DNA from: Candidatus Microgenomates bacterium
GTDB taxonomy: Bacteria > Patescibacteriota > Microgenomatia > UBA8517
Length of the DNA stretch: 46,267 nucleotides
NCBI GenBank assembly: GCA_016784385.1
Contig: JADHUT010000005.1
Coordinates: forward strand, 1-46,267
Reading direction: 5' to 3'
The notes below the pieces were generated by a model, which saw only the letters and a program-made list of their open reading frames with translations, was not told the DNA's origin and searched no databases. Below, piece by piece: positions 3 to 38,409 of the stretch (positions within the stretch are counted from its first letter, which is position 1; each line of letters opens with the position of its first letter). The position numbers were made by a program, and so were the translations under genes.

Positions 3-356
3 GTTCTTAAAGAGATTGGTAAACTTTCAAAGACTAACAAGAAGTATTACCAAGACAGTATTGATGTGTATAAACTTTCTCAAAATGCACATGAGACTTA
101 CAGAAAAGCAAACAAAGACAGCAAGAGAAACTTGTTAAAACTTGCATTTGGTGAACTTCTGTTAGATGAAGGAAAACTTCAGTACTCGTACTCTAAAACA
201 TTTGAGTTACTTCAAAAAGCTGTAAGCACAACCAATAGTTCGAAAATACCAGAAAATGAGTTTATGAAGTTAAAAATTTTCGAACAACCCAAAAAGGCCG
301 AAAACGTGGGAGTAACTCAAGGATTTTATCCTCAGAGTTACCTTGTGCGGGAGTGA
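3..356 (+). CDS. C-terminal part of a large serine site-specific recombinase (truncated by window edge)
   Basis: Frame 3 is open from the window edge: VLKEIGKLSKTNKKYYQDSIDVYKLSQNAHETYRKANKDSKRNLLKLAFGELLLDEGKLQYSYSKTFELLQKAV...; matches the C-terminal style of serine recombinases of CPR/phage elements (family recognition from memory). Confidence 0.65.
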   Translation, partial: VLKEIGKLSKTNKKYYQDSIDVYKLSQNAHETYRKANKDSKRNLLKLAFGELLLDEGKLQYSYSKTFELLQKAVSTTNSSKIPENEFMKLKIFEQPKKAENVGVTQGFYPQSYLVRE

Positions 357-613
357 CGAGACTCGAACTCGCAACCTCTTCCGTGCAACTTATCCTTCTG
401 TTACCAAAAGGGCTGGACTATCTCATCAACCTAATAAGGTTGCCAGGTATATAGTCTCTACACATTTACGAAATTTAAAAAAATTTCGATTTAGCTCGGG
501 ATTGCCCTTAAAAAAGGGTTTCCCCGAATTAGCCTGGTTTTTCCTCATAACATTACTGTCATGGGCTGCCATATTTGACAGGGAAGCACTCTAACCAATT
601 GAGCTACACCCCC
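348..613 (-). tRNA. tRNA-Asp(GTC) interrupted by a group I intron (intron 386..577)
   Basis: Exons GGGGGTGTAGCTCAATTGGTTAGAGTGCTTCCCTGT / CACGGAAGAGGTTGCGAGTTCGAGTCTCGTCACTCCCG fold as a 74-nt cloverleaf; anticodon stem CTTCC/GGAAG, loop CTGTCAC. Confidence 0.9.
386..577 (-). other. Group I self-splicing intron (IC3-like), 192 nt, no ORF
   Basis: P1 CUGU^CA AAUA UGGCAG with U-G at the 5' splice site; conserved AATTCGGGGAAACCC ... GGCAATCCCGAGC (P4/P5) and AGAGACTATA ... GATAGTCC (P7); intron ends in G before CACGGAAG. Confidence 0.9.
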
Positions 614-38317: not shown

Positions 38318-38335
38318 AATATATAAATATTTTTG

Positions 38336-38409
38336 GGTGGCTGAGGAGAATTGAACTCCCGACCTTTCCCTCCACAGGGGAACGCTCTGCCAACTGAGCT
38401 ACAACCACC
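38336..38409 (-). tRNA. tRNA-His(GTG)
   Basis: Cloverleaf; loop CTGTGGA; G-1 opposite C73. Confidence 0.93.

Follow-up and report, generated by a model that had tools for sequence, protein, structure and literature searches.

The only tRNA-Asp(GUC) gene found in a Microgenomates genome carries a compact IC3-like group I intron within its anticodon

How does a CPR bacterium obtain its tRNA-Asp(GUC) when the only gene found for it is split inside the anticodon, and how did an intron come to lie there? The question is raised by a stretch of 46,267 nucleotides from a Candidatus Microgenomates bacterium, analysed as a whole and called the window below. Group I introns have long been known in the anticodon loops of bacterial tRNAs. 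The intron of the window resembles the known ones in its small size, its place in the anticodon loop, the exon U paired to G and the lack of an endonuclease gene (some fMet introns carry one). It differs from them in its host, tRNA-Asp(GUC), and in its insertion between U35 and C36, whereas the known bacterial sites, to our knowledge, follow other anticodon-loop uridines. The preferred reading, with a probability of roughly 90%, is that the one tRNA-Asp(GUC) gene detected in this CPR host, which is probably Woesebacteria-like, has its anticodon loop interrupted by a compact IC3-like group I intron; we infer that the intron is active and essential.

The initial annotation had described a 74-nt tRNA-Asp split by a 192-nt group I insert at U35|C36, and its coordinates, strand and lengths are right (Table 1). 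The insertion point lies inside the anticodon (loop CUGU|CAC). In the cloverleaf check, the joined exons form 7/7 acceptor, 5/5 anticodon and 5/5 T-stem pairs around the loop CUGUCAC; C38 and G73 can be read from the joined sequence, and the 3' exon does not encode CCA. ARAGORN identifies the spliced 74-nt sequence as tRNA-Asp(gtc). Run with the -i option, as an intron-aware search, it calls tRNA-Asp(gtc) with a 192-nt insert, and without intron settings it does not detect the split gene in the window. The tRNA-Leu(UAA) of the same window, said earlier to lack an intron, is indeed called intact. The Rfam model RF00028 (Intron_gpI), which had been proposed as a check, matches with 95.5 bits (E 1.7e-23; gathering score 50). 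The match spans 394-665 and thus departs from the intron ends, because the first helix of the model is placed upstream of the tRNA. The fold of the 266-nt precursor lies 5.6 standard deviations below those of its shuffles (z -5.6). Promoter and terminator scans around the gene gave chance-level results.

Table 1. Parts of the split tRNA-Asp(GUC) gene and helices of its intron (positions in the window)
Feature	Position	Strand	Remarks
Split tRNA-Asp(GUC) gene, whole	348-613	minus	266-nt precursor; 74-nt tRNA after joining
5' exon, 36 nt	578-613	minus	ends CUGU (C32 U33 G34 U35); joined exons form a cloverleaf
Group I intron, 192 nt	386-577	minus	starts CAAAUA, last base G; RF00028 match
3' exon, 38 nt	348-385	minus	starts C36 A37 C38, ends G73
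P1	566-581	minus	exon CUGU (578-581) with guide GCAG (566-569); CUGU^CA...UGGCAG
P2 hairpin	546-563	minus	CAUGACA-GUAA-UGUUAUG; read from sequence
P3	443-537	minus	CCAGG (533-537) with CCUGG (443-447); two-sided changes in 3/5 pairs
P4	495-528	minus	UUCGGG/CCCGAG (523-528 with 495-500), encloses P5; invariant
P5	inside P4 (495-528)	minus	CCCUU/AAGGG; covariation in 4/5 pairs
P6a hairpin	469-488	minus	CGAAAUUU/AAAUUUCG; 5 pairs with two-sided changes
P7, guanosine-binding helix	416-456	minus	GACUAU (451-456) with AUAGUC (416-421); invariant
P8	427-442	minus	CAACC/GGUUG, enclosed by P7; all 4 main pairs covary
P9 hairpin	394-411	minus	CCUUUUG-GUAA-CAGAAGG; 4 pairs with two-sided changes
Terminal guanosine (omega G), 3' splice site	386	minus	read from sequence

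The elements named in the initial annotation (P1 with a U-G wobble, P4/P5, P7 and the terminal G) are all present. The U35-G wobble of P1 stands at the 5' splice site and is kept in 9/9 relatives; the terminal G occurs in the CAU introns and in all parsed Asp and Asn introns, for which the parser demanded it. The suggested P10, between UG and CA of the 3' exon, is possible but is not conserved across the relatives. A pseudoknotted P3-P7 core of group I type is found. The alignment of nine introns, from Asp and Asn hosts, has 92.0% of its cells paired (79.0% in shuffles), with a covariation score of 0.382 versus 0.146. Two-sided changes occur in 25 of the 52 pairs as against 14.6 (SD 2.2) in shuffles, none of which reached 25, and at most 12 in slid controls, although kinship inflates such counts; the alignment was blind to structure, which itself had been derived from the sequence of the window. 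Covariation is seen in P3, P5, P6a, P8 and P9. P4 and P7, paired in 9/9 but never varying, are therefore silent in this respect, and P2 is weak in the alignment (65.5% of cells paired). The location in the anticodon loop, the small size and the GNRA-type GUAA tetraloops capping both P2 and P9 are traits of the IC3 type, so that the intron, judged from its layout and sequence, is classed as IC3-like. The intron contains no homing endonuclease gene, for which 192 nt leave no room. In this the earlier description as very compact and endonuclease-free holds; the length is short yet usual, with 182-196 nt in several relatives.

The host assembly (G000) comprises 695,930 bases in 31 contigs and is 95.7% complete. 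ARAGORN finds 40 intact tRNAs in it, and neither an intact tRNA-Asp(GUC) nor an intact tRNA-Asn(GUU) is among them, in agreement with an independent loop-and-stem scan of the assembly. A second, intact tRNA-Asp(GUC), which the initial annotation had named as evidence against its own proposal, was thus sought in two ways and not found. Since the assembly holds no intact tRNA-Asp while AspRS is encoded, splicing is probably essential; the intron is probably active, and the use of aspartate in host proteins should depend on its self-excision. Four further group I matches lie elsewhere in the genome. In the sole tRNA-Asn(GUU) detected, a related group I intron occupies the homologous position U35|U36 (G000 C23:1-271, which is L003:1-271, minus strand). 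On the same contig, a CAU tRNA carries a group I intron between U33 and C34 (L002:1480-1743, plus strand). This tRNA is taken as initiator-like because the genome's other CAU tRNA has no intron, a tRNA-Ile(UAU) is present and a relative (L072) has C1-A72; at least ten related genomes have a like arrangement. The host also has two different tRNA-His(GUG) genes, one in the window (38335-38408) and one elsewhere (G000 C7:72071-72144).

Guanosine attack followed by exon ligation is established group I chemistry. On that model the precursor transcript would fold and bring the U35-G pair of P1 into position. An exogenous guanosine, bound by P7, would attack after U35, and the freed U35 would then attack after the terminal G, joining the exons and restoring GUC. 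The sequence by itself gives the core structure, the splice-site signals, a restorable tRNA and an assembly without an intact copy.

RF00028 matches were obtained in 36 of 56 related genomes. The strict Asp-plus-intron pattern occurs in at least 10 of the 374 genomes of the class, and at each of the 11 places matched a tRNA-Asp gene holds its intron at the identical site. In a scan of public genomes, seven of 13 stretches proved real (three Woesebacteria, one Campbellbacteria, two uncultured bacteria and one Thiotrichaceae MAG); the other six are chance matches with no intron there. Altogether 16 tRNA-Asp introns were collected, every one at the same site. Among 58 genomes sampled around the Thiotrichaceae MAG, only the MAG itself (L110) gave a match. 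The tRNA-Asp site, earlier considered uncommon, is therefore scarce within the class but recurrent, present in other phyla too and of several origins. A pattern allowing up to two mismatches detected no intact tRNA-Asp in the intron-bearing genomes to which it was applied; candidate matches in G269 and G730 were rejected since their anticodon loops differ. For several relatives, ARAGORN -i reported Thr, Ala, Pro, Tyr, Ser or Leu, and these labels were rejected for misplaced splice sites. The rule of U-G and terminal G fixes the splice sites, and the split tRNAs of the relatives are accordingly read as Asn, Asp or CAU. Genome G269 has two tRNA-Asp genes (L118, L126), each with an intron at U35|C36. 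In one uncultured bacterium, a second group I match of 64 bits lies about 1 kb from the tRNA-Asp intron (L106:4993-5205, minus strand).

Reviews list cyanobacterial and proteobacterial tRNA hosts of group I introns (PMC3984707, PMC4033280), and interrupted fMet and Ile2 genes were reported with tRNAscan-SE 2.0 (PMC8450103). Beggiatoaceae and Thiomargarita have interrupted tRNA-Arg(UCU) and tRNA-Leu(UAA) genes with putative group I introns (PMC4853749). These resemble the window gene in that a single tRNA gene, holding a putative group I intron, is reported missing by standard annotation; the isotypes differ, being Asp in the window and also in the Thiotrichaceae MAG. Some tRNAs of closed CPR genomes hold group I introns, reported without isotypes or sites (PMC8172020), and a survey of CPR rRNA insertions found them often accompanied by endonuclease genes (PMC11270868), which the window intron lacks. 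The present host shares the phylum with these CPR introns and likewise has two group I matches, of 53.7 and 32.8 bits, in its 23S rRNA region (G000 C9:17841-19061; L004, L005). No report of a bacterial tRNA-Asp or tRNA-Asn group I intron was found in the openly licensed literature; an earlier description elsewhere is possible. The kind of intron is thus known, host and site are new as far as the literature found goes, and the informative part is the recurrence together with the site shared by Asp and Asn. Bacterial group I introns gain tRNA-Asp(GUC) as a host, and tRNA-Asn(GUU) alongside it, and the introns explain why standard tRNA finders call these essential tRNAs missing in small genomes.

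The split gene could alternatively be a decaying remnant, with an intact tRNA-Asp in the unassembled part of the genome doing the decoding. The fragmented and incomplete assembly leaves room for such a copy; the exon stems, however, are perfect, the intron core is complete, and the other intron-bearing genomes tested, including one (G010) with the same tRNA-Asp intron whose assembly is one contig of 819,458 bases, are also without an intact tRNA-Asp, so that decay is quite improbable. The anticodon loop is also the place of archaeal bulge-helix-bulge introns, which would allow removal of the insert by a protein endonuclease. The bacterial host, the splice site at a U-G wobble, the terminal G and a complete group I core, pseudoknotted at P3-P7 and backed by covariation, speak against this, and the chance of such excision is close to negligible.

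A further explanation concerns the history of the introns, namely that those of tRNA-Asp form one old, vertically inherited lineage that never moved between tRNA genes. The tree bearing on this comprises 42 introns, with a warning of long branches from the program. The CAU introns form one group in it, and the Asp introns are spread over three places or more. Type 1, in the family of the window, is common to Asp and Asn; type 2 stands near the CAU introns and comes from other families of the class and from Campbellbacteria; type 3, with AAUUCAGGGAA-like cores, is that of Thiotrichaceae and two uncultured bacteria and includes Asn introns. Within the window's type, one Asp clade is not rejected (p-AU 0.19), which speaks for a single lineage. 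For the full set of 42 introns, the test rejects one Asp clade (p-AU 0.000147), and the starred branches require the Asp label to change four times or more. Moreover, the window intron is most similar (79.5%) to the intron in the tRNA-Asn of its own genome. The likeness is most marked in the variable P6 stem (23/27 as against 10-17/26), which is suggestive only, as the stem is A+T-rich. Purely vertical descent is therefore very unlikely. On the evidence of the tree, at least three intron lineages occupy the Asp site, two of them mixed with tRNA-Asn introns.

The reading preferred here for the distribution is inheritance with occasional capture through the exon target CUGU, which explains it best because no endonuclease gene lies inside the intron. 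Different intron lineages would have colonised tRNA-Asp on several occasions, and two of these lineages would also have reached that position in tRNA-Asn(GUU), one of the two having done so in the host genome. P1 reads CUGU alone, and any tRNA whose loop starts with CUGU is thus a potential target; both Asp and Asn are used. The target by itself is not decisive, since the window tRNA-His(GUG) starts its loop with CUGU like the intron hosts and yet is intact. It may tentatively be suggested that the CUGU loop of GU-anticodon tRNAs (Asp, Asn) is a shared landing site and that endonuclease-free introns hop from one tRNA gene to another, perhaps through reverse splicing into the RNA of the loop, with the Asp and Asn copies in the 0.7-Mb genome as a recent case. 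If so, decoding by tRNA-Asp and tRNA-Asn and probably initiation would all depend on ribozymes in this host. One site in two isotypes and several lineages offers a natural series for studying the movement of endonuclease-free introns between tRNA genes.

As to possible movers and sources, the host genome gave no RVT_1 match to a reverse transcriptase gene. A phage or plasmid origin of the window intron was considered and dropped, as only a 31-base core match was found in phages and none in plasmids. The 18-mer GTGTAGAGACTATATACC is not specific as a marker of the window's intron type, for it occurs in 66 viral contigs too. All seven viral-contig stretches proved to be chance matches lacking an intron. 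According to a 2014 review, phage introns were known only in protein genes (PMC3984707). Predicted viral contigs of IMG/VR (L132, L138, L170 and others) carry tRNA-Leu(UAA) split by group I introns with a core closely like that of the window.
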